Shown: positions 5,178-32,546 of the stretch, one piece after another | How positions within the stretch are numbered: the first letter of the stretch is position 1 | Layout of the letters: the number at the start of each line of letters is the position of its first letter | Source: Lysinibacillus sp. FJAT-14745 | GTDB lineage: Bacteria > Bacillota > Bacilli > Bacillales_A > Planococcaceae | Direction: 5' to 3' | Assembly (NCBI RefSeq): GCF_001275675.1 | Contig: NZ_LITM01000018.1 | Span: 1-43,190 of the forward strand | DNA length: 43,190 bases | Position numbers and translations under genes: made by a program | The notes under the pieces: generated by a model | What the model was told of the DNA's origin: nothing | The model's database searches: none | The model's input: only the letters and a program-made list of their open reading frames with translations

Positions 5178-5620
5178 GAAGTGATCAGGTAAGCCCGTGA
5201 AGTGATTGGGTAACCCGGAAAAGTGATCGGGTAAGCTCCCAGAGTGATCGGGTAATCCGGAAACTGATCGGGTAACCCGAAAAGTGATCAGGTAAGCCCG
5301 TGAAGTGATCGGGTAACCCGGAAAAGTGATCGGGTAGGGCCCAAAAGTGATCGGGTAACCCGGAAAAGTGATCGGGTAGTGCCCAAAAGTGATCAGGTAA
5401 CCCGGAAAAGTGATTAGGTAAGCCCGTGAAGTGATCGGGTAACCCGGAAAAGTGATCAGGTAAGCCTGGGAAGTGATCAGGTAAGCTGGAAAAGTGATCG
5501 GGTAAGCCCAAAAGTGATCAGGTAACCCGGAAAAGTGATCGGGTAGAGCCCCAAAGTAATCAGGTAACCCGGAAAAGTGATCGGGTAGTGCCCAAAAGTG
5601 ATCAGGTAACCCCTTCTGTA
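5178..5620. repeat. Minisatellite A: 21 tandem units of 21 bp
   Basis: The motif GTGATCGGGTAA (variants with TCAGG, TTGGG, TTAGG) starts at 5181, 5202, 5223, 5244, 5264, 5284, 5305 and so on to 5598. That is 21 units, 21 bp apart except for three 20-bp steps. The core is nearly constant. The 9-bp spacers are of three recurrent kinds (GCCCGTGAA, CCCGGAAAA, GxGCCCAAAA), so units look shuffled and duplicated in blocks. Because the period is a multiple of three, the minus strand stays open for 108 codons (PDHFSGL-type repeats), but there is no ribosome binding site or protein family match and I do not call this a gene. Confidence 0.95.
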
Positions 5621-5787
5621 ACCCATAGGATGACCGCGAATGCTAAGATAGCCAAAGCTCGTTGTCCAGCTACAGGTAAATCGCTGTTGTTAGGTAAAAA
5701 AGTAATGATGATTAATGAAGCGAAGGCCAATACGATCCATAGCGGCTTCAAATTACGTTTTGATTTTGCTTGTTCAGAAGTAGACAT
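5602..5787 (-). pseudogene. DASS/SLC13-type anion:sodium symporter, truncated after about 60 residues
   Basis: A good ribosome binding site (GGAAGGAGGAATATGT) and an ATG at 5787 start an ORF of 61 codons. It reads a polar N-tail, one hydrophobic helix (PLWIVLAFASLIIITFLP) and then LPVAGQRALAILAFAVILWVTEGV. This is the conserved beginning of divalent anion:Na+ symporters of dicarboxylate or sulfate type, which are normally around 450-550 residues. The ORF stops at once when it meets minisatellite A: the codons GGG GTT ACC of the gene coincide with the GGGTTACC of the repeat unit. No downstream part of the gene is present on the far side of the array. The gene is therefore broken; the substrate is unknown. 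Confidence 0.75.
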
Positions 5788-5970
5788 ACATATTCCTCCT
5801 TCCTACTACAATTTTCTATAACATCGGCTAGTAAAATGCTTTACTAAGAAAGTTAATTTGTCTAATTATTGTAAAAAAACTAGTATGTGAAATACCCTCT
5901 ATTTATAGAAATAAAGGGCAGTTACGAGAAAATATGTGGTCATAGAAAAGACAATAATATCCAGAAAATA

Positions 5971-6603
5971 TTATTTTTTCTTTTTGAATGCAGAAGTCAC
6001 TTTAGGCTCAGTTCCTATCATCAGTCGCTTAATATTTTCGATATGCAAAATGATGGCTATACCAAAAAGTAATAGGGCTATCATCGTTGGGCCAACCCCA
6101 GGAATCCATAAATAAGTGGCTATACAAAAAACGAGATAAAATTCAAGTACACCGACAATTAAATAGTTCGTTGCGAAAGATAAAATAACAAATAAAATGA
6201 GTGCAAATAAGCCAATTTTCCAATCAATCGCAAGTAATATCCCTATGATTGAAGCAGTTCCTTTTCCGCCATTGAAGCCCATATAAAATGGGAAATTATG
6301 ACCTAGAATGACACCAGCAGCTACGATATAGATAAAGAGCCAAACTTGTGCTTCTGTTAATTGTGTTATGTCAGCTAAATAGACATGTGCACCGATTATA
6401 GCTACAACGCCTTTACCGATATCGATCAGTGCAACTAATAGGCCGTATTTCCATCCAAGGGAAAGAGTAGCATTAGAGGCACCTGCATTGCCATGACCAG
6501 TCTTTTTTAAATCTACCCCGGATAAAAACTGTGCAACTTTAGAGCCGTGAATACAGCCAGTCAAATAACCAACAAGAAGAAAAATGATAACGGCTTTTAT
6601 CAT
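5971..6603 (-). CDS. plsY: Glycerol-3-phosphate acyltransferase, PlsY family
   Basis: With the ATG at 6603 the protein has 210 residues. I chose this start over the upstream ATG at 6621 because the upstream codons (GAAAGGAGG) are themselves the ribosome binding site. The family motifs are visible: GYLTGCIHGSK at the N-terminus, KKTGHGNAGASN (KxxGxGNxGATN in relatives), DIGKG, and GHNFPFYMGFNGGKGTAS. About five to six membrane helices are expected. PlsY uses acyl-phosphate from PlsX to acylate glycerol-3-phosphate in phospholipid synthesis. Substitutions in the second motif (Ala for Ile, Ser for Thr) suggest this may be a second, divergent paralogue rather than the housekeeping copy; that is inference. 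It is monocistronic. Confidence 0.8.
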   Translation of the reverse strand: MIKAVIIFLLVGYLTGCIHGSKVAQFLSGVDLKKTGHGNAGASNATLSLGWKYGLLVALIDIGKGVVAIIGAHVYLADITQLTEAQVWLFIYIVAAGVILGHNFPFYMGFNGGKGTASIIGILLAIDWKIGLFALILFVILSFATNYLIVGVLEFYLVFCIATYLWIPGVGPTMIALLLFGIAIILHIENIKRLMIGTEPKVTSAFKKKK

Positions 6604-6626
6604 AAAAGTCCTCCTTTCCAAATAAG

Positions 6627-6703
6627 CTCATCAGCATAGCGTGAGGTTGATTTCCATTCCTCTATTGCTAATCCCGAGAGTCGCCCAGTCTCACTCCAAT
6701 CAA
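6627..6703. repeat. Type-1 dispersed repeat, short copy
   Basis: Both ends of the type-1 element are present (CATAGCGTGAGGTTGATTTCC at the left, CACTCCAATCAAC at the right), but the middle, with its hairpin modules and GCGAAAGCG units, is missing. It lies directly upstream of the plsY start. Other copies are at 9378, 11727, 21076, 31975 and 35938. Confidence 0.75.
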
Positions 6704-6838
6704 CGATATAAAGACCTACACTTCAATAAATTGCATCCCTAACTTTTGGTGATATAAACAATAAATACTAAAATAGTGTATGCGTTCGTAATACGTAAAA
6801 AAGCAGACAGAAGTTTCGGAAAAAATAAAATTTTAGTG

Positions 6839-6867
6839 TTGACAGAAAAAAAGTCTATGTTTATACT
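6839..6867 (+). promoter_or_regulatory. SigA-type promoter of metY
   Basis: The -35 box TTGACA (6839-6844) and -10 box TATACT (6862-6867) are separated by exactly 17 bp. This places the transcription start about 20 bp upstream of the SAM riboswitch. Confidence 0.8.
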
Positions 6868-6895
6868 TTGTAACAACGATGGAAATTGAATCTCA

Positions 6896-7014
6896 TACTC
6901 TTATCAAGAGCGGCGGAGGGATAGGCCCTATGATGCCCGGCAACCAGTAAGTGACGAACTTGCTAAGGTGCTAATTCCTACAGATTCTTATTTGGATCTG
7001 GCAGATAAGGGGAG
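6896..7014 (+). ncRNA. SAM-I (S-box) riboswitch aptamer
   Basis: The closing helix pairs CTCTTATC (from 6898) with GATAAGGGGAG (7004-7014). Inside are the S-box signatures AGAGCGGCGGAGGGA, GGCCCTATGATGCCCGGCAACC and the AAGGTGCTAATTCC segment of P3/P4. This class binds S-adenosylmethionine and then favours the downstream terminator. It sits between a strong promoter and an O-acetylhomoserine sulfhydrylase gene, so it should shut that gene off when SAM is plentiful. Confidence 0.96.
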
Positions 7015-7030
7015 GAAAACTTGCAACCGC

Positions 7031-7059
7031 AACCCTCTTCTTAGCTGAAGAGGGTTTTT
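7031..7059 (+). terminator. Riboswitch expression-platform terminator
   Basis: AACCCTCTTC / GAAGAGGGTT form a 10-bp stem followed by TTTTT. It lies 17 nt after the aptamer and 70 bp before metY, in the usual position for the SAM-controlled terminator of an S-box. Confidence 0.92.
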
Positions 7060-7128
7060 GTTTTCTACTGAAAAAATCCTCCTCATCTCCGGTACCATCG
7101 TAAAAAAATAACCATTTGGAGGTATACA

Positions 7129-8430
7129 ATGACAAATTTTAAACCAGAAACATTGCTGTTACACGGTGGCCAAGAGCCAGACCCGGTAACAGGATCTCGT
7201 ACAGTACCCGTATATCGCTCAACGGCATTCGTTTTTAAAGACACTGCTCATGCGCAACGTCTTTTTGCCTTAGAGGAAGTTGGCAACATTTACACACGAA
7301 TTACAAACCCAACTGTAGATGTTTTTGAAAAACGCGTCGCTTTATTAGAAGGCGGTACAGCAGCAGTAGCACTTTCATCTGGTGCAGCAGCAATTGCGTT
7401 TTCCATTTTAAATCTTGCAGGTGCAGGGGATGAAATTGTCGCAGCAAGCTCTTTGTACGGAGGTACTTATAATTTATTTGCCAACACACTACCAAACTAC
7501 GGTATTAAAACAATTTTTGTAGACGAAACAAATCCAGATAATTTCCAAGCAGCTATTACTGATAAAACAAAAGCGGTGTTCGCTGAAATTTACGGTAACC
7601 CAAGTTTAAAGGTATTAGATATTGAAGCAGTAGCAAATATAGCACATGAAAACGGCTTGCCATTAATTATTGATAGCACATTTGCTTCACCATATGGCTC
7701 TACACCAATTGACTTTGGTGCAGATATCGTTGTTCATTCCGCAACAAAATGGATAGGCGGCCATGGCACAACTTTAGGTGGCGTTGTAGTAGATGCAGGG
7801 AAGTTTGACTGGACTCGTGGGCGTTTCCCAGGCTTTACTGAGCCAGATGCTTCTTATCACGGTTTGCGTTATGGTATTGACACAGCAGAGGCTGCATTTG
7901 CCACAAAACTGCGTGTGCAATTGTTACGCGACTTTGGACCAACATTAAGTGCCGATGCAGCATTTAATTTATTACAAGGTTTAGAAACGCTTCATTTGCG
8001 TATTCCTAAACACAATGAAAATGCATTAGCAGTAGCCGAATATTTGCGAAACCACCCATCTGTGGAATATGTAAATTACAATGGCTTAGAAGATTTTCCT
8101 ACCCACAATTTAGCTAAAAAATATTTGAAAAATGGCTTCGGTTCAGTACTTACATTTGGTATTAAAGGTGGACGTGAAGCAGGGCGTAAATTAATCGATA
8201 GTGTGAAATTATTCTCGCACGTAGCAAATGTAGGGGATGCCAAATCGTTAATTATTCATCCAGCATCTACTACACATCAGCAACTATCAGCTGAGGAGCT
8301 AATCCAAACTGGCGTAACCGAGTCGCTCATTCGCTTATCCATCGGTTTAGAGGCAGTAGAGGACATTATTGCAGATTTAGAACAAGCGATTGAACAAGTA
8401 ACAGCTTCACAACAAAAAGTAGAAGCTTAA
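7129..8430 (+). CDS. metY: O-acetyl-L-homoserine sulfhydrylase
   Basis: The protein has 433 residues, typical of MetY and longer than MetB/MetC-type lyases (about 380-400). It is a PLP enzyme of the Cys/Met metabolism family. It has the MetY-like start ([18 protein letters not shown]), [24 protein letters not shown], and the PLP lysine in [11 protein letters not shown] (about Lys207). [12 protein letters not shown] and [12 protein letters not shown] follow. It makes homocysteine from O-acetylhomoserine and sulfide, in the cytosol. Start: TTTGGAGGTATACA directly upstream of the ATG. The S-box leader places it under SAM control. No homoserine acetyltransferase gene follows, unlike many Bacillales loci; the substrate would come through homoserine, made by the hom gene 1.5 kb downstream. 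Confidence 0.93.
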
Positions 8431-8591
8431 TAAATAAAACATATTGGCTAATGTTGTAGCGTTTACGTATTTTCTCATTCGATAGGCCTCATTCGGTAAT
8501 GCGTCAAACGTTGCTGCATCATCCGTTCACCTCATTTGGTGATGTAACCGAAATCTTCTAAAATTAATACCTAGTAATTTTATAAGTATTA

Positions 8592-8620
8592 TTGACTTAC
8601 TTAATCCCGTGTTTTATACT
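8592..8620 (+). promoter_or_regulatory. SigA-type promoter of the small gene at 8776
   Basis: TTGACT (8592-8597), a 17-bp spacer, then TATACT (8615-8620). With a start near 8627 the mRNA would have an untranslated leader of about 150 nt. Confidence 0.7.
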
Positions 8621-8626
8621 AGAGAA

Positions 8627-8775
8627 TAAGAAAAGTGTTCGAAGGGCTACCAACCTAGAACCAATTAAATTAGTTTCATAAGTGCTCCCCCACTTTTGAA
8701 TATAGATGAAGAGGAGTAGTTGCTCAGCCAGTAGCTACTCTTATCTACAAAACTGATGATAAAGGAGTGTTTTAA
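8627..8775 (+). ncRNA. Long, possibly structured 5' leader, class not recognised
   Basis: Between the promoter and the gene, AAAAGTG (8631-8637) can pair with CACTTTT (8691-8697). An inner GGG/CCC pairing encloses a 40-nt internal region. A second hairpin, GAGTAG (from 8713) / CTACTC, follows near 8714-8742. I could not match it to S-box, T-box, purine, c-di-GMP, preQ1, yybP or fluoride classes. It may be an ordinary folded leader; pairing was judged by eye. Confidence 0.3.
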
Positions 8776-9162
8776 ATGGGAAATGTGTATAGTGCGCAAA
8801 ACATTGCATCTTATCTTATTTATGAGTTAAATGAAGGTCATGTGTTTGTGAACAACATGTCCATTCAAAACATACTTGCGTCAGTTGAGAGTAAATGGCA
8901 AGAGATCTTTAGACATTCTGCTTTTAAGGAAGTTGTTTATGTCAACGAGGAAGGCTATACAGTAAAAGAAGTTTTCGAAGCTTATGAATGCTATGGAACA
9001 AGTCATATTCCTCTACCTGCGACAGAGTATTATTTAAAATACGGCACATTCCAATTAGTTGAACGTACGTATGCAATACCAAATTTTACGCAGGAGGAAA
9101 TAAGACTGGTGCAACAAGCTTTAACACAATATCGTTATAAATTGCTAGCCAAAGCTAGTTAA
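8776..9162 (+). CDS. Small soluble protein, possibly divergent Panacea/DUF4065-like
   Basis: The protein has 128 residues with no membrane segment or signal peptide. It starts at an ATG preceded by AAAGGAGTG. The order of elements is a first helix NIASYLIYELNEG, then NMSIQNILASVESKW, a beta-like KEVVYVNEEGYTVKEVFEAYECYG, and a closing helix EEIRLVQQALTQYRYKLL. It faintly resembles the SocA/Panacea (DUF4065) layout (NIAxYxLxKxNE, LKLQKLL, GPVxxxVYxxYxxYG, EEIxxLxxVL). The key LKLQKLLYYAQ block is not conserved, so function cannot be claimed. Panacea proteins often act as antitoxins, but no toxin partner is next door. The gene is monocistronic, with its own promoter, a long leader and a terminator. 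Confidence 0.75.
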   Translation: MGNVYSAQNIASYLIYELNEGHVFVNNMSIQNILASVESKWQEIFRHSAFKEVVYVNEEGYTVKEVFEAYECYGTSHIPLPATEYYLKYGTFQLVERTYAIPNFTQEEIRLVQQALTQYRYKLLAKAS

Positions 9163-9182
9163 TTATCCCTCATATATTTGGG

Positions 9183-9216
9183 CTCATTCTCTGCTGCTAC
9201 AGGGAATGAGTTTTTT
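9183..9216 (+). terminator. Rho-independent terminator after the 128-aa gene
   Basis: CTCATTCTCTG pairs with CAGGGAATGAG (one mismatch/wobble region) and is followed by TTTTTT. It begins about 20 bp after the stop codon. Confidence 0.88.
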
Positions 9217-9377
9217 AATTAGATAAGGAAGATAGACCAGCATAATTGAAAAAAATTTTTAATTAATATATTTCAAAATATGAATGTATTTTACATACAT
9301 ATAATAGAAGAAAGGTATTTATTTTTGGATCATCACCAAAAGTTGTGGATGACATTTGTTAAAATTTATACCAAATA

Positions 9378-9532
9378 TAAGTTGATTGGAGTGGATGGTG
9401 GGCGCCCCCAGGAAGCTCTGCTCTGCGCGAAAGCGAAGCGTCAGCAACAAATGTTTTATCTGTGCGAAAGCGAAGCGTCAGCAACAAAGCGCCCAGCCGC
9501 AACGGAAATCAACCCCACGCTATGGTGATGAT
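9378..9532. repeat. Type-1 dispersed repeat with two GCGAAAGCGAAGCG units
   Basis: The ends are TAAGTTGATTGGAGTGGA (left) and CGGAAATCAACCCCACGCTA (right), the two termini seen in other copies. In between, the unit GCGAAAGCGAAGCGTCAGCAA occurs twice at a 37-bp spacing. Overlapping ORFs through it are repeat translations, not genes. The remaining gap to the homoserine dehydrogenase gene (9533-9940) is AT-rich and shows nothing recognisable apart from a degenerate GCGAAAGTGAAACGCC at about 9774. Confidence 0.85.
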
Positions 9533-9940
9533 CCTTATTTTTTTATAAAGAATCGTCAATATTTGTTCAATTATTATAGATCAAGTGAAAAATCATATAA
9601 TAAAGGAATGAAAACGATTTCCTTTGCACTTCTAGAGGAAACAAATGTCCATCCTAGAAAGATTTTTCTTGTGCAATGTTTGCATTTACGTTACAATTTT
9701 CTTTAAGTTGATTTTTGAATTATTTGAATTTGTTTGTTTCATAGTGTATCTTCATTCAGGATTTTTTTTTGTAGCGAAAGTGAAACGCCATGACTAAATA
9801 TCTGTCTGAAGATGAAGTGTTAGAAACACGGCAAACTGACCTGCTTTGTATAGTCGGCGCACAATTCAAAATCTGTAAGAATTAAGCTGAGACGAAATAA
9901 ATATAATGAAACTGCGGAATGTAAGTTGGAGGGAATAGGA

Positions 9941-10927
9941 ATGGCAACTATAAAGGCAGCTATATTAGGATTTGGAACGGTAGGTCAAGGAATTTACCAT
10001 ATATTAAACGAAAAGCGTGAAGAGCTTAAAAATAAATTAGGAATTGAGCTAGAAGTTGCAAAGATTTTAGTTACAGACACTAGCCGTGAACGTGTACCAG
10101 GCACAGCGCATTTAATGACAACTAGCATGGATGAAGTCTTAGCAGAACCAGGTATGCAGGTTGTTTTTGAGGCGATCGTCAATGAGGAGCCAGCATTTAC
10201 TTATTTAAAGCGCGCTGTTGAACATAAATGTCATGTCATTACAGCTAACAAAGTAATGTTTGCAAAACGAGGCTTGGAGCTACAGGATCTTGCAAAAGTA
10301 AACGGTGTTTTTGTAGGCTTTGAGGCAACGACTGCTGGCGGTGTACCAGTTATTAAAACGATGAAAAATATTTTGCTTGTCAATGATGTTAGTCGTATTC
10401 AGGGTGTTTTAAATGGGACATCCAACTATATTTTAACGAAAATGCGTTCACAGGGCTGGTCGTTCGAAACTGCTTTAAAAGAGGCGCAAAATTTAGGCTA
10501 TGCAGAGGCAGATCCATATAATGATATCTCAGGCCAGGACGCTTTTAAAAAATTAATGATTTTAAGTGCTTTGGCATTTGGTGAACAACCAGACTGGGCT
10601 GACGTTGATGTGGTTGGCATTGATAGTATTTCGGCAGAGCAAGTAAAAGAAGCTTGTGAAAAAGGCTTGCGTTACCGCCACGTTGCTGAGGTTGAGAAGC
10701 TAGCAGATGGTAAAGTGGTCGCAAAGGTTGGCCCACAGTTAGTTGATAAAGAACATCCGCTTTATCCAGTTGATGATGTTAATAACGCTGTGGCATTGGA
10801 TACAAATTATATTGGCACATTAACGTTAATTGGACCTGGGGCAGGTATGTATCCAACAGCTAGTGTCATGGTTGAGGATTATGCTGAAATTATCGGTAAG
10901 CGAGCTGGATTTGTCGTAACGATATAA
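9941..10927 (+). CDS. hom: Homoserine dehydrogenase, short form without ACT domain
   Basis: From the ATG at 9941 (TTGGAGGGAATAGG upstream) the protein has 328 residues. The TTG at 9926 overlaps the ribosome binding site and is rejected. The N-terminal Rossmann fold shows ILGFGTVGQG. HVITANKVM, then GVLNGTSNYILTKM and the signature GYAEADPYNDISGQDAFKKL (catalytic Asp/Lys region) follow. It reduces aspartate semialdehyde to homoserine for threonine and methionine. Most Bacillales Hom proteins are about 430 residues and end in an ACT domain for threonine feedback. This one stops right after the catalytic domain, so direct threonine inhibition is not expected (inference). It is not clustered with thrB/thrC. 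A long terminator follows. Confidence 0.9.
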   Translation: MATIKAAILGFGTVGQGIYHILNEKREELKNKLGIELEVAKILVTDTSRERVPGTAHLMTTSMDEVLAEPGMQVVFEAIVNEEPAFTYLKRAVEHKCHVITANKVMFAKRGLELQDLAKVNGVFVGFEATTAGGVPVIKTMKNILLVNDVSRIQGVLNGTSNYILTKMRSQGWSFETALKEAQNLGYAEADPYNDISGQDAFKKLMILSALAFGEQPDWADVDVVGIDSISAEQVKEACEKGLRYRHVAEVEKLADGKVVAKVGPQLVDKEHPLYPVDDVNNAVALDTNYIGTLTLIGPGAGMYPTASVMVEDYAEIIGKRAGFVVTI

Positions 10928-10940
10928 TTAGATAGATTAT

Positions 10941-10987
10941 GCCTATCATTCAACAATGTGCTAATTGTTTAATGATAGGCATTTTTT
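10941..10987 (+). terminator. Rho-independent terminator after hom
   Basis: GCCTATCATT / AATGATAGGC form the outer stem and AACAAT / ATTGTT an inner stem, followed by ATTTTTT. It lies between convergent genes; the T-run favours the plus-strand hom transcript. Confidence 0.92.
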
Positions 10988-11216
10988 AATCCTCATCTTT
11001 AACATCAATATCCTCAGGAATAGGTGTATTCCGCCAAATTTCAATTTCCTCTTTAATACGATCTAACTGCTCAAAATAAGTGCTGAATTGTCCGCTATTA
11101 ATCAGTATTTGATCACCGTCGTATACTGAACGGATACGGCCCTCGTAAACTAAGCGAAGTACTTGATCCTCTGGCATACCAAGTTCGATGGCTGTTTCTT
11201 CAATGGTTTTATACAT
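10986..11216 (-). CDS. Small excisionase/MerR-like helix-turn-helix protein
   Basis: The protein has 76 residues. The first half, TIEETAIELGMPEDQVLRLVYEGRIRSVYDGDQILI, has the layout of an HTH_17 (excisionase-type winged helix) domain: helix, turn, recognition helix, then a short beta wing. The second half is an acidic, probably helical tail (FSTYFEQLDRIKEEIEIWRN) ending PEDIDVKDED. An AAAGGAGCGAAATT ribosome binding site supports the ATG. No phage or integrase gene is nearby, so an excision role is unlikely. Host regulators of this size are common in Bacillales, mostly without known targets. It converges on hom. Confidence 0.75.
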   Translation of the reverse strand: MYKTIEETAIELGMPEDQVLRLVYEGRIRSVYDGDQILINSGQFSTYFEQLDRIKEEIEIWRNTPIPEDIDVKDED

Positions 11217-11396
11217 AAATTTCGCTCCTTTTGTTGTTTTTATTATAACCTCCCTTGAATAGAAAGCCTACTATGGGTTAATGATCAAAGAAAAAGGAAA
11301 ATGGTAATTGTTTGATTTTGGATAAATCTGTATTATTAATGTTAATGAGTGGTGACGGTCGAGGGGCAATAAATGATGATTAGCTATTACCATTTT

Positions 11397-11640
11397 GCTA
11401 TATAAAATGAGCTTTCTGAAATGGTCATGGAAATGGACAAGTTTAGCTGCTACGAGCATTGCGTTATTCCTAGGTCTTTTTTTCTCATCAATTCGTCTTA
11501 CAGGTGTAGCTATAGGAACAGTTGTAACGATAGGTAGCGCTCCTGTCTTTTCTGGTGCTTTAGAATGGATACTATGGAAATCACAGCCGACAAAGGTGTG
11601 GGGAATAGCAACTGTAATGGCAATTGGTTAATAATAGGGA
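11397..11640 (+). pseudogene. EamA/DMT-type transporter fragment
   Basis: The frame from about 11397 encodes two membrane-like helices with RLTGVAIGTVVTIGSAPVF and ALEWILWKSQPTKVWGIATVMAIG. These match one internal segment of EamA-family drug/metabolite transporters (the TGVAxGTVVxIGSAPVFAG region before the second repeat). Full proteins have ten helices and about 300 residues. There is no ribosome binding site at the first Met, and the reading stops after 78 codons without the second half. It is a decayed internal piece. An intact EamA gene is present elsewhere in the window (38467). Confidence 0.65.
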
Positions 11641-11726
11641 AGGGGCTGTCCATATAGGAGGGATTGGACTAGCCCTTTCTGCTGGTCTTCCCTTTGCACA
11701 TAAATGTCGAAACATATGCCCTGTAT

Positions 11727-11940
11727 ATAAGTTGATTGGAGTGGAGGCTAGGCGACTCCTTGGGGAATAGCGTCACAGATGAGACCCTGGAGCGAGCATC
11801 ATAGGGGAACGAAGGCTAAAACCATCACGTCCTGTGATAACGCCTTCGTGACCAACATCGTGTTGGCCCAAGCGGCTCATCGGACGCCCCCAGGAAAGCG
11901 CCTAGCTGGAACGGAAATCAACTCCACGTTAGGGTGATAA
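11727..11940. repeat. Type-1 dispersed repeat, fullest copy
   Basis: It runs from TAAGTTGATTGGAGTGGA to ACGGAAATCAACTCCACGTT. Inside are GGCGACTCCTTGGGGAATAG, a GAGACCCTGGAGCG block, the hairpin ATCAC-GTCCT-GTGAT (11824-11838), the hairpin CCAAC-ATCGT-GTTGG (11852-11866) and GGACGCCCCCAGGAAAGCGCC. It serves as the reference for the shorter or permuted copies elsewhere. It fills most of the gap before the two-component system; the rest of 11641-12034 shows no gene. Confidence 0.85.
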
Positions 11941-12034
11941 GATTCATTAAAACCTTAAGAAATTCTTCATTTTTATAATAACTGGTTTTTAAGATTTAAA
12001 AGGTACACTATTAATTGAGAGCGAGGTGTATATC

Positions 12035-12860: not shown

Positions 12861-12875
12861 AGAGGAGTTAAAAGT

Positions 12876-15071: not shown

Positions 15072-15078
15072 ACAAAAA

Positions 15079-15106
15079 ACAGCGGCAAAAGTTTTGCCGC
15101 TGTTTT
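15079..15106 (+). terminator. Rho-independent terminator after the two-component operon
   Basis: ACAGCGGCAAAA pairs with TTTTGCCGCTGT (tight loop) and is followed by TTTT. It starts 8 bp after the kinase stop codon. Confidence 0.9.
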
Positions 15107-15177
15107 CATTATGTTGAAAAATAAAATACGTGAGGAAATCCTTCATTTTGGCACTTTATTCGGTCGCTTTGGCGGGA

Positions 15178-15815
15178 GCATCTACGGTATTTGCAGTACT
15201 ATCCACGGTATTGGTAGTTCTATTCACGGAATTGGCGGTTCTATCCATGGTATTGGTAGTTCTATCCACGGAATTGACGTTTCTATCCACGGCAATGACG
15301 TTTCTATCCATGATATTGGTGGTTCTATCCACGACAATGACGTTTCTATCCGTAGTATTGGCAGTACTATCCATGGCAATGACGTTTCTATCCACGATAT
15401 TGGTGGTTCTATCCACGGAATTGACGTTTCTATCCATGGTATTGGTAGTTCTATCCGCGGAATTGACGTTTCTATCCACGAAATTGGCGGTTCTATCCAC
15501 GGCAAGGACGTTTCTATCCACGAAATTGGCAGCACTATCCATGGAATTGACGTTTCTATCCATGATATTGGTAGTTCTATCCACGGCAAGGACGTTTCTA
15601 TCCATGGTATTGGTAGTTCTATCCGCGGAATTGACGTTTCTATCCATGACAATGACGTTTCTATCCATCACTTCGGCCCTACATACCGTCGCTTAGGCTT
15701 CAATCCGTCGTTCCAGCCCTACATACCGTTGCTTAGGCTAATCAATCTGTCGTTCCGGCTCTTCCTTCCGTCGTTTCAGCCCATCTATCCGTCACTTCGG
15801 CCTCTCATTTTGCCG
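15178..15815. repeat. Minisatellite B: 23 exact-period 21-bp units plus a degenerate tail
   Basis: CTATCCACGG-type cores start at 15199, 15220, 15241, 15262, 15283, 15304 and so on, with the last at 15661. That is 23 units at precisely 21 bp without a slip. Units combine the core with spacers such as GGAATTGAC, GGCAATGAC and GGTATTGGT. From about 15686 a diverged array with core CCGTCGTT continues with 21-bp steps (15705, 15726, 15747, 15768, 15789). At least four of six frames remain open across the array because 21 is a multiple of three. I see no start signals or protein family and treat the ORFs as by-products. The flanks (15107-15177 and 15816-15875) carry nothing else. Confidence 0.95.
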
Positions 15816-23900: not shown

Positions 23901-24026
23901 AAGACTTTCATCCGTAACTGACAACAATGTTCAGCTAAAAGAAAATAAAGCCTCTGACGATTGTCACCGATGTTATTAATCCAAAAGAATGCTCTTCAGA
24001 TCTCTATATATTAAAAATTCGGAATT

Positions 24027-24055: not shown

Positions 24056-24138
24056 GTAATAGATAATATCTGTCTGAAAGCAATGCAATTGGTAACAATG
24101 AGGCAGAGGCAACATAGATTGTTTAGGGGGTGTTTGTA

Positions 24139-25617: not shown

Positions 25618-25643
25618 CAGATCAATGAAAGGGGATGTTCTTG

Positions 25644-26816
25644 ATGAAAGTTGTTGTATTAGGTGCAGGTTTAATGGGGAAAGAGGTAGCTCGTGATTTA
25701 ATAAAAAATAGCAAAGTGGAGCGTGTATTTTTAGGGGATATAGACGTGAATTTAGCGCAGAACTTTGTGGACTCGTTAAATACAGATAAGATTGAGGTTG
25801 TAGAACTTCATGCTGAGCGCGATGACTCGTTAATGGAGGTTATCTCAAAAGGCAATGTAGTCGTTAATGCATTATTCTATTCCTTTAATGAGCGTGTAGC
25901 AAGAGCGGCAATCGCGGCTGGTGTTCATTCCGTCGATTTAGGTGGTCATATTGGCGGTGTAACAGAAAAAATATTAGATCTAGACGAAGAGGCAAAAGCA
26001 AAAGGTGTAACAATTATTCCAGACTTGGGTGTTGCTCCAGGTATGGTCAACATTTTAGCGGGCTACGGTGCTTCGAAATTAGATGAGGTAGAATCTATTA
26101 AACTATTTGTAGGCGGTATTCCTACAGAGCCGAAGCCACCTCTTCACTATACGCGAGTATTTTCTCTAGATGGTGTCTTTGATCATTATACGGAGCCATC
26201 AAAAGTGATTCAAAAAGGTAAACTTCAAGAAGTTCCATCGTTATCAGGTGTTGAACCTATTTATTTCAAAGATTTTGGTGTGCTTGAGGCATTTTATACA
26301 TCTGGCGGTATATCGACATTGTATAAGACATTCCCAAATGTCCAAACATTAGAATATAAAACGATTCGTTATAAAGGACATGCAGAGAAATTTAAGCTAT
26401 TAGCAGATTTAGGATTCCTCGATGCTAGTAATAAGGTAGAGCTAGAAAATCAGGAGGTTTCTGTACGTCCAGTTGTTCGTGAGGCACTTAAAAAGAAACT
26501 TGAGCTTGGTACAAAACCAGATGCAGTGCTACTGCGCGTAATTGTAGCGGGTGAAAAAGCGCAACAACAAGTGACGTATGAGTACGAAATGGTCGTGCGT
26601 AAAGATATGACGATTAATGAAACGGCTATGGCTCGTGCAACAGCAAATACAATTTCTGTCGTTGCTCAAATGATTGGGGAAAATAAAATTACAGAGCGCG
26701 GTGTATTTGCACCTGAATCAGTTGTACCTGGCGATACTTATATTGAAGAAATGGCTAAACGTGGTGTTGTCATTAAGGAGACGTCTCATACATCTGCAAT
26801 GATTGTGAAATGGTAG
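25644..26816 (+). CDS. lysDH: L-lysine 6-dehydrogenase (saccharopine dehydrogenase family)
   Basis: From the ATG at 25644 (GAAAGGGGATG upstream; the in-frame ATG 9 bases earlier overlaps that site) it has about 390 residues. The N-terminal Rossmann motif is VVLGAGLMGKEVARDL. DLGGHIGGVTEKILDLDEEA, IIPDLGVAPGMVNILAGYGA, VFSLDGVFDHYTEPS and EYKTIRYKGHAEKFKLLADL follow. These match the Geobacillus stearothermophilus L-lysine 6-dehydrogenase closely as I remember it. The enzyme deaminates lysine at the epsilon position with NAD+, giving 2-aminoadipate 6-semialdehyde and ammonia, without saccharopine. Flanking ALDH and acyl-CoA dehydrogenase genes fit the next steps. Only about 10 bp separate it from the third gene. 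Confidence 0.85.
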   Translation: MKVVVLGAGLMGKEVARDLIKNSKVERVFLGDIDVNLAQNFVDSLNTDKIEVVELHAERDDSLMEVISKGNVVVNALFYSFNERVARAAIAAGVHSVDLGGHIGGVTEKILDLDEEAKAKGVTIIPDLGVAPGMVNILAGYGASKLDEVESIKLFVGGIPTEPKPPLHYTRVFSLDGVFDHYTEPSKVIQKGKLQEVPSLSGVEPIYFKDFGVLEAFYTSGGISTLYKTFPNVQTLEYKTIRYKGHAEKFKLLADLGFLDASNKVELENQEVSVRPVVREALKKKLELGTKPDAVLLRVIVAGEKAQQQVTYEYEMVVRKDMTINETAMARATANTISVVAQMIGENKITERGVFAPESVVPGDTYIEEMAKRGVVIKETSHTSAMIVKW

Positions 26817-26826
26817 GTGCTTGGTC

Positions 26827-28020
26827 ATGAATTTCGAATTTACCACTGAGCAGGAAATGTTACGTAAAACAGTGCGGCAGTTTGTGGATGCCGAGATACT
26901 TCCACATATTGCGAAGTGGGATGCTGAGGGCGGCTTCAATCCGAAGATTTGGTCAAGACTTGCTGAGCTAGGCTTAATGGGTGTTTGTGTACCAGAACAA
27001 TACGGTGGTAGTGGGATGGATTACAATGCACTCGCCATCGTTTGTGAAGAGCTTGAACGTGGAGATACAGCGTTTCGCACAGCTGTTTCTGTTCATACAG
27101 GCCTGAATAGCATGACCTTAATGCAATGGGGAACAGAGGCTCAAAAACAGCAGTACCTTGTTCCACAGGCAAAAGGAGTTCGGATTGGGGCATTTGGTTT
27201 AACAGAGCCCGGAGCAGGGTCAGATGTAGCCGCAATGTCTACCACCGCTGTAAGGGATGGAGATTTTTACGTGTTAAATGGACAAAAAACATGGATTTCC
27301 TTATGTGATATAGCTGACCATTTTATCGTTTTTGCCTACACTGATAAATCGAAAAAGCATCATGGCATTAGTGCATTTATCGTAGAGCGTTCCATGGCGG
27401 GCTTTACATCGAAGGCCATTAAAGGTAAATACGGTATTCGTGCTGGTAATACGGGTGAGCTCTTTTTTGAAGATCTACGTATACCTGTAGAGAATCGCCT
27501 TGGAGAAGAGGGAGAAGGCTTTAAAATTGCGATGTCTGCGTTAGATAATGGTCGTTTTACAGTAGCTGCAGGCGCTGTCGGTCTTATTCAAGCGTGTCTC
27601 GAGGCGAGCGTGAAATACTGTCATGAACGCGAAACATTTGGTAAACCTATTGGTGAGCACCAGCTAGTAGGGCAAATGATTGCCAAAATGGAAGCGGGCT
27701 ATCAAATGAGTCGCCTACTTGTATATCGTGTTGGAGAGTTGAAAAACAAAGGTGTACGTAATACGCGCGAGACATCATTAGCAAAGTGGCAGGCTTGTGA
27801 TTTTGCCAATAAAGCTGCGGATGATGCTGTACAAATTCATGGAGCATATGGTTATTCGGATGAATATCCAGTCGCTCGTTATTTACGTAACTCGAAAGCA
27901 CCGGTTATCTACGAAGGCACGCGGGAAATTCATACAATTATGCAGGCTGACTATGTATTAGGAAAACGTCAAGATAAGCCATTAACAAAAATGCTACCAA
28001 AATGGCCATTTGAAGAATAA
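26827..28020 (+). CDS. Acyl-CoA dehydrogenase, glutaryl-CoA-dehydrogenase-like
   Basis: The start ATG at 26827 follows GTAGGTGCTTGGTC; it gives 397 residues. FAD-enzyme motifs: GLTEPGAGSDVAAMST, YVLNGQKTWIS, CHERETFGKPIGEHQ, and QIHGAYGYSDEYPVARYLRNSK. The catalytic Glu is in the standard place (VIYEGTREIHTIM). The EGTREIH ending resembles the glutaryl-CoA dehydrogenase branch (EGTHDIH in mammals). If so it would convert glutaryl-CoA to crotonyl-CoA, the late step after aminoadipate. A general short-chain acyl-CoA dehydrogenase cannot be excluded. It is translationally close to lysDH (10-bp gap), the last gene of the cluster. Confidence 0.85.
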   Translation: MNFEFTTEQEMLRKTVRQFVDAEILPHIAKWDAEGGFNPKIWSRLAELGLMGVCVPEQYGGSGMDYNALAIVCEELERGDTAFRTAVSVHTGLNSMTLMQWGTEAQKQQYLVPQAKGVRIGAFGLTEPGAGSDVAAMSTTAVRDGDFYVLNGQKTWISLCDIADHFIVFAYTDKSKKHHGISAFIVERSMAGFTSKAIKGKYGIRAGNTGELFFEDLRIPVENRLGEEGEGFKIAMSALDNGRFTVAAGAVGLIQACLEASVKYCHERETFGKPIGEHQLVGQMIAKMEAGYQMSRLLVYRVGELKNKGVRNTRETSLAKWQACDFANKAADDAVQIHGAYGYSDEYPVARYLRNSKAPVIYEGTREIHTIMQADYVLGKRQDKPLTKMLPKWPFEE

Positions 28021-28069
28021 GCCAGCTTTTATCAATGTATCTAAAGGAATAAAGAAAAAATACCAAATA

Positions 28070-28097
28070 AAAAACAATGTTGCGATTGTTTGTTTTT
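28070..28097 (+). terminator. Weak terminator after the lysine cluster
   Basis: AAACAAT pairs with ATTGTTT around a 6-nt loop and is followed by GTTTTT. AT-rich and short, but rightly placed 50 bp past the stop codon. Confidence 0.6.
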
Positions 28098-28187
28098 AGA
28101 CTAATAGGGGCACAATCACATGCCCATCAAGCTTACCAAGTAAATTACTAGACACGAAAGATCCTTGTTTCAAATCTAGCAAGTGAT

Positions 28188-28220
28188 AAAAAAATAGGCA
28201 TGCTAAAGAAGCCTATTTAA
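28188..28220 (-). terminator. Minus-strand terminator hairpin
   Basis: AAATAGGC / GCCTATTT form an 8-bp stem; on the minus strand it is followed by seven T. It lies just past the stop codon (28235) of a short minus-strand ORF, suggesting a minus-strand gene once ended here. Confidence 0.65.
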
Positions 28221-28234
28221 ACGCGATTTTTTCT

Positions 28235-28360
28235 TTAGGCAGCATGTCTATGCTTCACCGTCGTTTTATACACCATCTCTAGAATATCAAAGACGGTCAA
28301 CTTCTTATATCTATGACATTTACATTTGAGCAGCTGAGACTTGTAAGGAAACAACTCTCT
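28235..28360 (-). pseudogene. Minus-strand gene tail, about 40 codons, not recognised
   Basis: On the minus strand an open frame ends ...LLKCKCHRYKKLTVFDILEM then a basic tail ending KHRHAA and TAA, followed by a terminator hairpin. Upstream the frame is closed after about 42 codons, with no ribosome binding site. It is probably the C-terminal remnant of a lost gene. I recognise no family. The rest of 28021-28623 has only a perfect hairpin, CCAGTCTA-ACTA-TAGACTGG (28398-28417). Confidence 0.35.
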
Positions 28361-28623
28361 ATTCTAGAATCAATAGAAAAGGTATTTACAGGTGGGCCAG
28401 TCTAACTATAGACTGGTCTATTTATAGTTTTTATTTAATCATTAAGGCTGAATTGTAACAAACGATCTGAAAATTCGGATAAATACGAACGGAGGTAAGG
28501 GTAAATGTTTGACAAAGCTTCGCTATAATGCAAGAATAATTTTTCTTGTAAAAATTTAAGATGAAATGATGGATGAATAGTTGGTTGAATGAAATGATAT
28601 TAAAATAAATTAGGAGGAATCGT

Positions 28624-29313
28624 ATGATACATAATAGAGTTATAGCCTTATTATTTAGAATGGGTAGCCTTATTTTTATATTATATGGTCTATTATTACG
28701 TATGGGCATCCTATCGGGCGAAATGAATTTTAAGATCTTTATGTACTATACTATCCAAAGCAATTTTTTAGCATTGATCTTGTTTAGTATACTTACTATA
28801 CGTACAGTTAAGGGATTGATAAATGATGGGAAGACGGGAAGTGCTGGCTATTTTTCACGTTTTGAAATGATATGTGTAATTGATTTACTTTTAACACTTA
28901 TCGTTTATTGGATGTTGCTAGCTCCTACTACCTTTACAATGGGTGGGAGTTTTTATCTTTGGAAATTTGATAATCTTGCAGTACATTTGATTACACCTAT
29001 TCTTTGCCTTGTAGATTATTTTCTATTTACAGAATCTAATCATTTAAAATACCGAGATGTATATTATGTTTTGATATACCCACTCTCATATGTGGCATTT
29101 GCTACTATCACAGGTCTAATGGGATATGTGTACAGTATATCGCCAATTGATGGGAAACCAGTACATTACGCTTACTTTTTCTTTGACTACGACAGAGTAG
29201 GAGCAAAATCCCTTGTCTACATCGGTGGCCTTATAGTATTTTTCTTGGTACTTAGCCATATTATGTATTTGTTTGACAAGAAAGTTAATAAACCTTTAGT
29301 TGTAAGCAAATAA
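28624..29313 (+). CDS. Pr6Pr-family membrane protein
   Basis: The protein has 229 residues with six predicted membrane helices. YYTIQSNFLALILF, the HLITPILCLVDYFLF block, YVLIYPLSYVAFA and the aromatic VHYAYFFFDYD motif match the Pr6Pr family of Firmicutes and actinobacteria (FTxQSN, HxxxPxxxxxD, YPxxY, YPYxFxD). No function is established for bacterial members. The ATG follows TTAGGAGGAATCGT. It is a single gene. Confidence 0.8.
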   Translation: MIHNRVIALLFRMGSLIFILYGLLLRMGILSGEMNFKIFMYYTIQSNFLALILFSILTIRTVKGLINDGKTGSAGYFSRFEMICVIDLLLTLIVYWMLLAPTTFTMGGSFYLWKFDNLAVHLITPILCLVDYFLFTESNHLKYRDVYYVLIYPLSYVAFATITGLMGYVYSISPIDGKPVHYAYFFFDYDRVGAKSLVYIGGLIVFFLVLSHIMYLFDKKVNKPLVVSK

Positions 29314-29397
29314 TGTTATCCATAGCCAATGATCTTTTGGTTGGTTATTATGTTTTTGTAGTGATTACATCATAACTATAAAAAAGGGTCATTGCTT

Positions 29398-29646
29398 AGA
29401 ATGATACGGATGTATACATATTCGATGTTACGTCTCCAAAAGAAATAGATATTTCTGTCGTAAATGAAAATCAAATTGGAATCATGGGTGCTTCTTCATG
29501 AGTCTGATATGCAAAATTGCGCATTTTATGGACAGGAAGATGGTAATATTATAGAAGGTAAATTTACTGCGGAACCAGGAAAGTATTATTTATATATTTA
29601 TAAATTTGATAATGAAGACGGGACATATACAGTAAAAGTACAATAA
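29398..29646 (+). pseudogene. Frameshifted remnant of a secreted beta-rich protein
   Basis: One frame (from about 29399) reads NDTDVYIFDVTSPKEIDISV and NENQIGI, then hits a stop. The next frame, from about 29485, continues sensibly as SWVLLHESDMQNCAFYGQ, IEGKFTAEPGKYYLYIYKFD and EDGTYTVKV. Joining the two gives a beta-sandwich-like C-terminus seen in Bacillales secreted or lipoprotein domains, so a one-base frameshift broke it. The N-terminus and signal sequence are absent. A proper terminator still follows it. Confidence 0.6.
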
Positions 29647-29669
29647 CATAAAAAAGCAGTAACAAACGT

Positions 29670-29701
29670 AACGAGAGGGATTCAGTTTCTCTCGTTTTTT
29701 A
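29670..29701 (+). terminator. Rho-independent terminator
   Basis: ACGAGAG / CTCTCGT stem (29671-29677 with 29689-29695) followed by TTTTTT. It serves the broken gene just upstream. Confidence 0.85.
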
Positions 29702-29785
29702 CTGAGGAAAAATTCGGAATAATGTAACTTTTTAATTCTTTGGAAGTCTAATTAATAAACAAATTTACGAAAGGTAGGTAAATTG

Positions 29786-31879
29786 ATGAAAAATAAATGG
29801 AGAGCAATTTTACTCATCACCGCACTAGCTATTTTGCCAGGAATTTTTATGTTGATGTCGGCCCCAAAAGTAGAGGCACAGACTACGAGTGCGAGTATGA
29901 CAACTCATAGCTGGAAAGTTTCCTTTACTAAGGCACTAAAGGAAAGCAAAATAACGGAAGACAATGTTTACGTAACAAATAGCAAAGGTCAAAAGGTAAC
30001 AGCAACAGTAACAGTGGGAGAAGATAAAAAGACAATAATCGTAAGCGATTTAGTACCTGGTAGTTATAAATTACATGTGAATAAAGAAGCGTTTGTACTA
30101 GATGGAACTAAAATGACATCGCAAGAAATAGCATTTACCATCATTGAAAAGCTTGAACCTGTAAAATCGGAAAAAGAGCTACAACAATATTTTGAATCAC
30201 TTTTAGCTAATTCACATAAAGAACTGGAATATGAAGCAACCACGGAAATGGCAAAGAGCGATGACAAAGCGAGTGCAGACAACTCCTCTACAACGAATAA
30301 TCAAGTCGAAGGAGTGGAAGAAGGGGATATTGTTGTTGTCAAAGATGGCTTTATTTATGCTGTAAAAGATCAAGGCATTAATGTAGTTGATGCGAAAGAT
30401 CCGAAAAATTTAAAGTTAACGACAACAATCAAGCTGAAAGAATCACAATATATTTCAAAACTAGCATTATATGATCATTTATTAATAGTGATTGGGGGTG
30501 AATATCTAGAAAAAGTAGGCACAAGCATGTCGACAGCTACTTTGTATGATATTTCAAATCCAAAAAATCCGAAGCTTATACGTGAAATGGGGCAAGAGGG
30601 ATATTTACAAGATATTCGAATTACAAATGACACATTATACTTAATCGGTAATATGTATCCGAATTATTGGATGCTAAGAGAGCAAAAAGTGCCGGATTTA
30701 AAACCGAAAACATTTGATAGTGTAGAAGGAAAAGAGTACAAAAGTTTACCTCTAGAGAAAATTTCTATTTTACCTAATACAATGGATGGAACATATAGTT
30801 TAATTACAGCAGTGGATTTAAAAAATGGTGCAAAAACAAAAGCGAATACTAAGGGATACTTAGGTGGTAGTAGTGGAATGTATATGTCGGAGAATGCACT
30901 TTATTTAACAACACCTATTTATGATGGAAATCCAGTGCCTGCTGCTGGTCGTATTATGGATATGATCTGGATGCCAAGAATAACGGATACACAAGTTTTT
31001 AAATGGGATGTTGATGGAACTGCCATGAATTTTGTAGGTACTACGGAAGTAAAAGGATCAGCGTTAAATCAATATTCAATGGATGAATATAAAGGTAATT
31101 TCCGCATCGTTACAACTGAAGGAAGTACATGGGATGAACAAGAAATATCACGAAACCACCTATTTATTTTAGATGAAAATTTACAAGAGCTTGGTGCAGT
31201 AAAAGATTTAGCTCCTGGTGAAAAAGTGTATTCTGCACGCTTTATGGGCGAAAAAGCATATGTGGTAACATTTAAGCAAGTGGATCCACTGTTTGTTATT
31301 GATGTGGCAGATCCGAAAAAGCCAACCGTGCTAGGTGAGCTAAAGATTCCAGGCTTTAGTAACTATTTACATCCATTAGACGATACACATTTAATCGGCA
31401 TTGGCTATGATACCGAGCAACGCTATGATGCATATTCGAAGCGTAATTTTACGGTTACAACAAATATGAAAATGTCATTGTTTGATGTTTCAGATTTCAA
31501 AAATCCAAAGGAACAATCAACAGTAAAAATCGGTGGAGAAGGCTCGTACTCCGAAGTTCAATACAATCCTAAAGCGCTATTCCGTAATAAGGAATACCAT
31601 TACTTTGGTTTCCCAGTTGTCCTTTATGATGCAGGGAAGGGGGATGAAATCGTCTACAAAGGTCAAGGCGCACAAATCTATGAAATCACTGCAGATAAAG
31701 GAATCGTACTTAAAGGAAATATTGTGAATAAAAGCATTGGCGATCAGTATGAAAGTTGGGAGCAGCGTGTACAGCGAGTAGTCTATATAGATGACGCTCT
31801 TTACACAGTAGCTAACAATGAAGTGAAGAGCTATCAGCTAAAAGACTTCACTCCACTTGATACATTAACTATAAAATAA
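29786..31879 (+). CDS. Secreted beta-propeller protein (PF09826-like)
   Basis: From the ATG at 29786 (AAAGGTAGGT upstream) it has 697 residues. Residues 1-32 are a signal peptide (KNKWRAILLITALAILPG, cut around VEAQ). A Big-like domain follows (about 40-110; SWKVSFTKALKESKITEDNV). A low-complexity linker comes next, and then the beta-propeller from the family's typical NNQVEGVEEGDIVVVKDGFIY onward. Blades carry YDISNPKNPKLIRE, FVIDVADPKKPTVLGELKIPG and SLFDVSDFKNPKE repeats. PF09826 proteins are secreted propellers of unknown function in bacteria and archaea. No anchor or lipobox is visible. It has its own strong terminator, and nothing in the neighbours suggests a partner. Confidence 0.88.
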   Translation: MKNKWRAILLITALAILPGIFMLMSAPKVEAQTTSASMTTHSWKVSFTKALKESKITEDNVYVTNSKGQKVTATVTVGEDKKTIIVSDLVPGSYKLHVNKEAFVLDGTKMTSQEIAFTIIEKLEPVKSEKELQQYFESLLANSHKELEYEATTEMAKSDDKASADNSSTTNNQVEGVEEGDIVVVKDGFIYAVKDQGINVVDAKDPKNLKLTTTIKLKESQYISKLALYDHLLIVIGGEYLEKVGTSMSTATLYDISNPKNPKLIREMGQEGYLQDIRITNDTLYLIGNMYPNYWMLREQKVPDLKPKTFDSVEGKEYKSLPLEKISILPNTMDGTYSLITAVDLKNGAKTKANTKGYLGGSSGMYMSENALYLTTPIYDGNPVPAAGRIMDMIWMPRITDTQVFKWDVDGTAMNFVGTTEVKGSALNQYSMDEYKGNFRIVTTEGSTWDEQEISRNHLFILDENLQELGAVKDLAPGEKVYSARFMGEKAYVVTFKQVDPLFVIDVADPKKPTVLGELKIPGFSNYLHPLDDTHLIGIGYDTEQRYDAYSKRNFTVTTNMKMSLFDVSDFKNPKEQSTVKIGGEGSYSEVQYNPKALFRNKEYHYFGFPVVLYDAGKGDEIVYKGQGAQIYEITADKGIVLKGNIVNKSIGDQYESWEQRVQRVVYIDDALYTVANNEVKSYQLKDFTPLDTLTIK

Positions 31880-31883
31880 AAAG

Positions 31884-31922
31884 AAAGTCCAATAAACTCA
31901 ATCTTGAGTTTATTGGACTTTT
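31884..31922 (+). terminator. Rho-independent terminator after the propeller gene
   Basis: AAAGTCCAATAAACTCAA pairs perfectly with TTGAGTTTATTGGACTTT around a 2-3 nt loop, ending in TTTT. The stem is unusually long (18 bp). Confidence 0.92.
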
Positions 31923-31974
31923 CGTGTTGTTGAAAAACTATTGTGTCAATGCGTCTTATTAAAAAAGACGATTC

Positions 31975-32097
31975 TGCAAAGCGAGGGGTTGGTTTCCGTT
32001 CCGACTGGGCGGAGCCGCATTTGTTGTTGCTGTCGCTTCGCTTTCGCATAGACAACTTCTGCTTCGCTGCAGGGTCTCGTCTGTGGCGATGATCCCT
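31975..32097. repeat. Type-1 dispersed repeat, first part
   Basis: GCGAGGGGTTGGTTTCCGTTCC, GACTGGGCGG, a GCTGTCGCTTCGCTTTCGCA unit and GCAGGGTCTCGTCTGTGGCGATGATCC follow in the reverse orientation. It is separated from a second part (32236-32445) by minisatellite C. Confidence 0.75.
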
Positions 32098-32130
32098 AAG
32101 TAGTTGCCCATAGTAGAGAAAAACAGGAAT

Positions 32131-32214
32131 TGTTCCGATAAAAGCTAAAATTGTTCCGATAAAACGAGAAAATGTTCCGATAAAATGAGATGTTGTTCCG
32201 ATAAATCTTCAAAG
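32131..32214 (+). repeat. Minisatellite C: four 21-bp units
   Basis: GTTCCGATAAA occurs at 32132, 32153, 32174 and 32195, exactly 21 bp apart, with diverged spacers. In the frame of GAT it reads SDK-type repeats (CSDKTRKCSDKM). No gene. Confidence 0.9.
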
Positions 32215-32235
32215 TATTCATATAAAAATGAATTA

Positions 32236-32445
32236 ACTGCGCTTTGTTGCTGCCGCTTCGCTTTCGCACAGTTAAAACATTGTCGCTGCAGGGTCTCGGG
32301 GCAACAGGTGTTTTTTGTGCGAAAGCGTAGTACAAACGCAGCAGCAGCGACAGGATGTTGGTCACGAAGGCGTTATCACAGGACGTGATGGTTTTAGCCT
32401 TCGTTATCCCCGAGGAGTCACCCAGTCGTAACGAAGAACAACTTA
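32236..32445. repeat. Type-1 dispersed repeat, second part
   Basis: It contains CTGCCGCTTCGCTTTCGCA, GCAGGGTCTCGGGGCAACAGG, GTGCGAAAGCGTAGT, CAGGATGTTGGTCACGAAGG and the hairpin ATCAC-AGGAC-GTGAT (32374-32388), then CCTTCGTTATCCCCGAGGAG. GCGAAAGCG units occur in both orientations, so it is a composite. Confidence 0.75.
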
Positions 32446-32479
32446 TCCGCATGACATACGTTTTAATAAAATGTCACCC

Positions 32480-32546
32480 AACTTTTAAATTTTATCGACA
32501 AACTTTCCTGTTTTATCAACTAACTTTTAATTTTTATCGACATCCA
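32480..32546 (-). repeat. Minisatellite D: three 21-bp units, inverted relative to C
   Basis: TTATCGAC or TTATCAAC at 32492, 32513 and 32534, exactly 21 bp apart. On the minus strand the units read GTCGATAAAA with VDK-type codons (KLVDKTGKFVDKI). Together with C it brackets the repeat at 32236-32445. Confidence 0.85.

Follow-up and report, generated by a model that had tools for sequence, protein, structure and literature searches.

Tandem 21-bp GATA repeats in the gene gaps of Lysinibacillus are mostly oriented with replication

Tandem repeats of 20-21 nt that keep their size, differ in sequence and have no known function have been described in Bacillus by Subirana and Messeguer (2021), whose collection of 176 genomes yielded 781 repeats of this size among 4,029, alongside 1,886 of 51-53 nt (PMC8161180). 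In the portion of that report available to us, nucleoid or protein binding, small RNAs and two helical turns are discussed, the families are called species-specific with the exception of B. simplex and B. muralis, and no sequence conservation is reported (PMC8161180). Here we describe four arrays of 21-bp units, designated A to D, in a stretch of 43,190 nucleotides from Lysinibacillus sp. FJAT-14745 (assembly GCF_001275675.1, contig NZ_LITM01000018.1, positions 1 to 43,190 of the forward strand; hereafter the window), together with their relatives in other genomes. These arrays are members of the published non-coding 20-21-nt repeat class of bacteria. As in the Bacillus repeats, to the extent that the available text describes them, the unit is repeated at least four times in A, B and C (just 3.0 times in D), the sequences are generally non-coding, with no selectively open frame in most families here, several families of the same size occur per genome, and a short sequence, here GATARA, is kept within species (PMC8161180). 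They differ from that description in that the same families recur across several genomes of Lysinibacillus, in part at orthologous loci, and in that a GATA-based plan is common to many Lysinibacillus species and partly to another genus (PMC8161180). That 21 bp amounts to two helical turns, as the initial annotation of this DNA had suggested, is a remark already found in the accessible part of the same paper (PMC8161180). The 52-nt Bacillus satellites, as far as the available text goes, likewise combine constant size, of about five helical turns, with variable sequence (PMC8161180, PMC8625621), but they are of another size and from other species. In the open-licence literature as available we saw no report of replication orientation, of convergent placement or of Lysinibacillus for such repeats, an absence that is unproven. 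New here are an unequal pattern of column conservation, also seen in two genomes of one other genus, an enrichment in convergent gene gaps and a bias of the GATA strand toward the leading strand.

Several 21-bp families were found per genome (GATAG, CGCT, GTTGG, TTCC and GATC), plus families without GAT (CGCCGCTAA, AATACCCGCG); the non-GAT and GATC families come from repeat clusters near the searched arrays and are not an unbiased sample. Pooling and aligning units on GATA gave five consensuses: GATAGAAnnnYSAAARTGRYG, GATAAAnnnnnRARAATCGCT, GATAAAWYnnAAAAGTTnGKY, GATAAAWnnnRAAAWYRTTCC and GATAAAnnnnnAWWnWGTTTC. The plan of the unit is GATA, then some 5-8 variable bases, then an A-rich block, with a tail specific to the family. 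Mean entropy within arrays was, in every family, 0.10-0.56 bits at columns 5-6 versus 0.90-1.82 bits at columns 8-11, with 0.32-1.16 bits at columns 13-16; tails were conserved in CGCT and TTTC and less so in GGATAG and TTCC. The GATARA core is kept in most repeats, though absent from some 21-bp families. Outside Lysinibacillus, the A, T and G of columns 14, 17 and 18 stood at 0.80, 0.83 and 0.88 in genome G225 (248 units) and at 0.80, 0.76 and 0.69 in G178 (80 units) of one other genus, the same columns giving 0.71, 0.66 and 0.63 in 1,022 Lysinibacillus GGATAG units. By eye, a further genome of that genus (G174) shares AA only, and GATA without the A-rich block is shared by G250, from a third genus.

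Orientation was scored in a main set of 132 arrays from nine genomes, each array with at least four GATAs in a row. Seven genomes (G004, G019, G022, G023, G024, G028 and G030) were picked as array-rich, and arrays were taken from among the matches listed, disregarding strand; three arrays mostly within a called gene and two lacking a called gene on both sides had been left out. The leading strand was defined as the strand with positive local GC skew, excluding the array and 100 bp on each side. The GATA strand was leading in 106 arrays, lagging in 21 and unclear in five (127 scorable). Leading to lagging counts were 40:1 for GGATAG, 26:5 for CGCT and 5:0 for TTTC, or 71:6 for these three pooled, and 33:12 for GTTGG and TTCC pooled. 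The bias was present in convergent gaps (45:6) and in divergent gaps (15:2). Between tandem leading-strand genes 41 arrays were sense and 13 antisense, whilst the five that could be scored between tandem lagging-strand genes were without exception antisense and therefore leading. Merging arrays that share a homologous neighbour left 72:20 loci (72 of 92 leading), 35:7 for gene-neutral loci, with one locus mixed. GATA strand orientation follows replication, not gene direction, a pattern absent from the initial annotation. In G024, a single contig of 5.49 Mb, the 12 places with arrays of at least 10 units up to 2.36 Mb are on the plus strand, whilst beyond that point five are on the minus strand and one is on the plus strand, and local GC skew is positive before 2.36 Mb and negative after it. 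As a control, a 36-bp repeat in the same stretches showed no replication orientation (10:7). A rule that arrays run in the sense of the gene, suggested by the window, was discarded because the antisense and divergent cases among the 132 arrays follow replication.

G225, from the other genus, gave 24:6 with strong local clustering, and six of its arrays, at 1.43-1.45 Mb, oppose the skew. Arrays in this genome, mostly of 3-12 units, sit in many adjacent gene gaps along some 50 kb at 1.46-1.52 Mb (loci L203-L205), on one strand throughout regardless of gene direction; some are paired about 230-260 bp apart, and they often open with a near-constant first unit. A terminus signal was considered for the dense block (1.43-1.52 Mb), which flips strand near 1.455 Mb, and was rejected: the GC skew keeps its sign at that point, and the sampled genes are ordinary.

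The initial annotation had named a strong excess of 21-bp GAT-core arrays in gene gaps as support for its claim, and such a strong excess is seen across Lysinibacillus and its relatives. The 132 arrays lie in 53 convergent, 62 tandem and 17 divergent gaps, compared with 85, 335 and 139 among the 559 gaps of 150 bp or more in these stretches that hold no array, so that convergent gaps are enriched (53/132 vs 85/559; odds ratio 3.7, p 2e-9). This placement behind genes, together with the sense excess at tandem leading-strand genes, would suit an RNA-level element, one that acts as RNA after transcription into 3' ends or small RNAs. Array B, which lies between the stop of an acyl-CoA dehydrogenase gene and a terminator-like hairpin, points the same way, and 52-nt satellites of Bacillus coagulans are transcribed according to the accessible part of PMC8625621. 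We nevertheless consider such an element unlikely, since divergent arrays and those at tandem lagging-strand genes follow replication rather than transcription, and since a terminator precedes the array in 18 of 34 convergent CGCT, GGATAG and TTTC arrays, as scored with an insensitive finder (terminators at 59 of 300 genes, and at 14 of 300 on the start side). By eye, some arrays begin right after the T-run of a terminator-like hairpin. Replacement of terminators by arrays was rejected on a mixed result, terminators lying before the array in 18 of those 34 cases and after it in 13. Folding of the first 168 bases of up to 14 arrays per family was no better than that of column-permuted arrays in five families, which also argues against action as RNA. 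Array A is the exception, with a mild excess on its plus strand (GGGTAACCC; -55.8 vs -43.8, sd 4.6, column-permuted).

The initial annotation had also read the units as seven codons with a central GAT. Twenty-one bases do make seven codons, and the GAT frame was open in 17 of 42 GGATAG, 14 of 33 CGCT and 5 of 6 TTTC arrays, as translated heptapeptide repeats would predict. This did not hold up: the GAT frame is no better open than other frames in most families, complement frames being open as often or oftener in GGATAG and CGCT, and it is nearly always closed in GTTGG (2 of 32 open) and TTCC (0 of 14). Array A mixes 20- and 21-nt units, no frame is kept at B because its L119 ortholog mixes periods of 21, 41 and 62, and the reading frame at array B (P0001) has no Pfam match. 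Translation is thus extremely improbable. A reading as intrinsically curved DNA, in which A-blocks are phased with the helix, fares little better. The A-rich blocks of a unit lie about one turn apart, CGCT, TTCC and TTTC rank high for AA/TT power at 10.5 bp, and the modelled bend of TTCC (21.5 degrees) and TTTC (20.9 degrees), computed with assumed wedge values, exceeds the 19.4 degrees below which 95% of random genomic DNA falls. No family, however, bends clearly more than its column-permuted arrays (mean z -0.58 to +0.86), and GGATAG arrays, at 10.5 degrees, bend less than random DNA (13.1 degrees), so that we regard curvature as very improbable. The coding, RNA-structure and general curvature readings are not supported and are weaker than the two replication-linked readings considered below. 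A CRISPR array is unlikely, the 21-bp units lying head to tail without spacers.

Searching for five GATs at 21-bp steps gave 98 + 140 = 238 matches in the genome of the window and 3,041 over 32 Lysinibacillus genomes, with at least one match in 31 of the 32, compared with 32 matches in 11 of the 32 genomes at 24-bp steps; these counts are of overlapping matches, so that one long array counts many times. The backward pattern, five TAGs at 21 bp, gave 1,145 matches in the same genomes, partly from the same arrays because GATAG arrays include TAG. A 21-bp periodicity is general in the 32 genomes, and the GAT core is far beyond chance. What the initial annotation had named as refuting its claim is seen in part only: repeats of 35-37 bp occur about as often, and GAT is missing from some 21-bp families, but the core stands. 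In a repeat-blind sample of 20 stretches of 20 kb outside the window, period 21 was the shortest in 4 of 17 repeat clusters and periods 35-37 in 8. Of the two dominant periods there, 21 bp is thus the less frequent; within the window, 4 of 7 clusters had period 21. The second dispersed tandem repeat, of 35-37 bp (GTGCGAAAGCG..., e.g. at 36010-36143), is at least as common as the 21-bp one. An order-level search for five GATAs at 21 bp was positive for 126 of the 261 genomes, spread over 12 of the 19 genera. The backward control was far commoner in a few genomes (e.g. 364 + 110 in G197). This control, ATAG at 21 bp, is very common in G193, G197 and G230, species of another genus, and other 21-bp cores therefore exist there.

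Two readings link the arrays to replication. Under one, they would be a by-product of little functional value, if any: slippage, or the copying of single strands, on the lagging-strand template would create and spread them, and their orientation would follow because only one strand serves as that template, by analogy with IS200/IS605 elements, which act on the lagging-strand template according to the available part of PMC6006769. REP/BIME and IS200/IS605 sequences resemble the arrays, as far as that text describes them, in being dispersed and non-coding, and the action of the IS elements on the lagging template could set orientation; they have hairpin or palindromic ends and a Y1 transposase (PMC6006769), whereas the units here repeat directly every 21 bp and, in five families, fold no better than permuted controls. 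An origin as a by-product fits an orientation that tracks replication and not genes, and it fits the turnover of unit number. Unit number, which the initial annotation had proposed comparing between strains, varies between genomes at orthologous loci with family and strand kept (e.g. 5, 13, 16 and 5), and 42-bp super-units are present. It also fits a scarcity of CTA and TTA trinucleotides on the GATA strand of all five GATA families, at 0.07-0.58 per unit vs 0.46-1.16 in column-permuted arrays, the other strand having one or more per unit. The by-product reading alone leaves unexplained the unequal column conservation, the single period and the plan shared with another genus, and leading and lagging arrays of the main families are similar in unit number (medians 12 vs 11, p 0.93). 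We consider it possible but doubtful. An idea that the arrays are primase sites was set aside, as CTA/TTA scarcity was all that was measured, its meaning is speculation and primase specificity was assumed.

The best reading, which we hold tentatively and as unproven, is that the arrays are directional DNA sites, for a putative protein, kept or made in replication orientation. They would be a non-coding, DNA-level element of tandem directional 21-bp recognition units, with one unit bound every second turn of the helix, always on the same face of the DNA. Arrays would be retained or made chiefly when their orientation suits the replication fork that passes them, the gaps at transcription-unit ends would be where they disturb promoters least, and unit number would shift through slippage or unequal recombination, often in 42-bp steps. 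The spacing, the unequal columns, the several families with one plan, the placement in gene gaps, the persistence on the same strand and the leading-strand orientation speak for it. KOPS, SRS and Chi are directional motifs, polar with respect to the replichores, that favour the leading strand and occur as single short sites in great number. The arrays share their directionality and leading-strand bias, but are clustered, scarce in some species and, judged from their positions in G001 and G024, show no evident rise toward the terminus.

Several observations weigh against directional sites. The binding protein is putative only. The bias is weaker in GTTGG (23:8) and TTCC (10:4), whilst other arrays gave 2:3, as did the non-GAT family CGCTAA (2:3). 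Even in intergenic DNA free of arrays, lone GATAs favour the leading strand (412:276), so that composition explains part of the orientation, although the merged loci differ from this background at p 6e-4. The genome of the window gave just 16:7 plus 2:1, and the four window arrays are split 2:2 by local skew (A and C leading, B and D lagging). Array B is the sole lagging GGATAG array of the 40:1, and its orthologs, which as mixed arrays fall outside the 132, are lagging too. A GGAT-type locus, L083, is also lagging, and stands outside the set because it lacks four GATAs in a row. A wider GGAT[AT]GA pattern gave 16:7, the lagging rows being four B orthologs, B itself and two at L083. Conservation at columns 1-4 is in part due to the selection of arrays by GATA, the family names were taken from the tail bases, and the tails of GTTGG are variable (entropy 1.04-1.21). 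Lastly, the genus can do without the element: G027 had no matches, and arrays are all but absent from some species.

Table 1. Repeat arrays and associated features in the window
Feature	Position	Strand	Basis and description
Array A	5158-5613	+	TRF period 21, 21.9 copies, about 22 units; GTGATCRGGTAA family
Array B	15180-15667	-	TRF period 21 over 15180-15646, longer periods to 15667; 22.2 copies; GGATAGAA family
Degenerate extension of array B	15676-15793	-	TRF period 42 and sequence reading
Array C	32120-32205	+	TRF period 21, 4.1 copies, four units; TTCCGATAAA family
Array D	32480-32542	-	TRF period 21, 3.0 copies, three units; GTTGG-type GTCGATAAAA family
Terminator-like hairpin	15072-15110		3' of the kinase gene; hairpin read by eye
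Bacillaceae-1 RNA match	32347-32413	-	Rfam RF01690, 61.2 bits; within the composite element holding C and D

Tandem Repeats Finder (TRF) and the spacing of GATs bear out the four 21-bp arrays of the initial annotation, each with GAT once per unit in register. Array B carries 23 GATs on its minus strand, separated by 21 steps of 21 bp and one of 42 bp. Array A has 21 GATs on the plus strand, separated by sixteen steps of 21 bp, three of 20 bp and one of 42 bp, and is not strictly of period 21; GAT occurs on both of its strands because its GATC is a palindrome, and its strand was accordingly assigned as that of GGGTAA. Array C has four in-register GATs and one off register, and array D, on the minus strand, has three and one. 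A search of Rfam returned no match to the arrays themselves. The description of the four as unrelated was only partly right: C and D belong to one dispersed composite element, and B to the GGATAG family found in many genomes. Array A belongs to a GATCRGGTAA family, identified in repeat clusters near searched arrays. The composite stretch in which C and D flank the Bacillaceae-1 RNA match gives 96 partial matches to its own genome, and a fixed left flank ending in GGATGTC is common to many D-type arrays. Bacillaceae-1 RNA (RF01690) has six matches in the window, at 11800, 21211, 23760, 32347, 34355 and 34459, of which two adjoin each other at 34355-34524.

The genes on either side of each of the four arrays are convergent, and C and D occupy the same gap. 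Array A is flanked by a plus-strand gene (3549-5069) and by a minus-strand gene remnant of 61 aa. The remnant (5604-5787) is N-terminal and sodium:sulfate symporter-like, at a Pfam score of 20.2 bits that is below the curated cut-off of 27; it runs directly into array A, and the remaining part of the gene was not seen adjoining. A SAM riboswitch is located at 6898-7011, upstream of a plus-strand gene at 7129. By Pfam, array B sits between a histidine kinase gene (plus strand) and the acyl-CoA dehydrogenase gene (minus strand). Among 19 stretches orthologous to the B locus, an array was present on the same strand in five species and none was found within 3 kb in 13; in nine of these 13 the gap, of 40-58 bp, is essentially the terminator-like hairpin. 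In L133 (L. piscis) the array is on the opposite strand, and the next called gene is on the plus strand.

Fixed-size satellites without known function in some bacteria are a published open question. The shared core, the preference for convergent gaps and the replication orientation described here make that question directly testable. With somewhat less assurance than for the directional sites themselves, we suggest that these may be widespread bacterial satellites whose direction is set by replication, with GATA units recognized or laid down by a factor working at the fork and kept on the leading strand in gene gaps of more than one genus. If the orientation stems from how the arrays form, they would offer a simple system in which to watch satellites start and spread.

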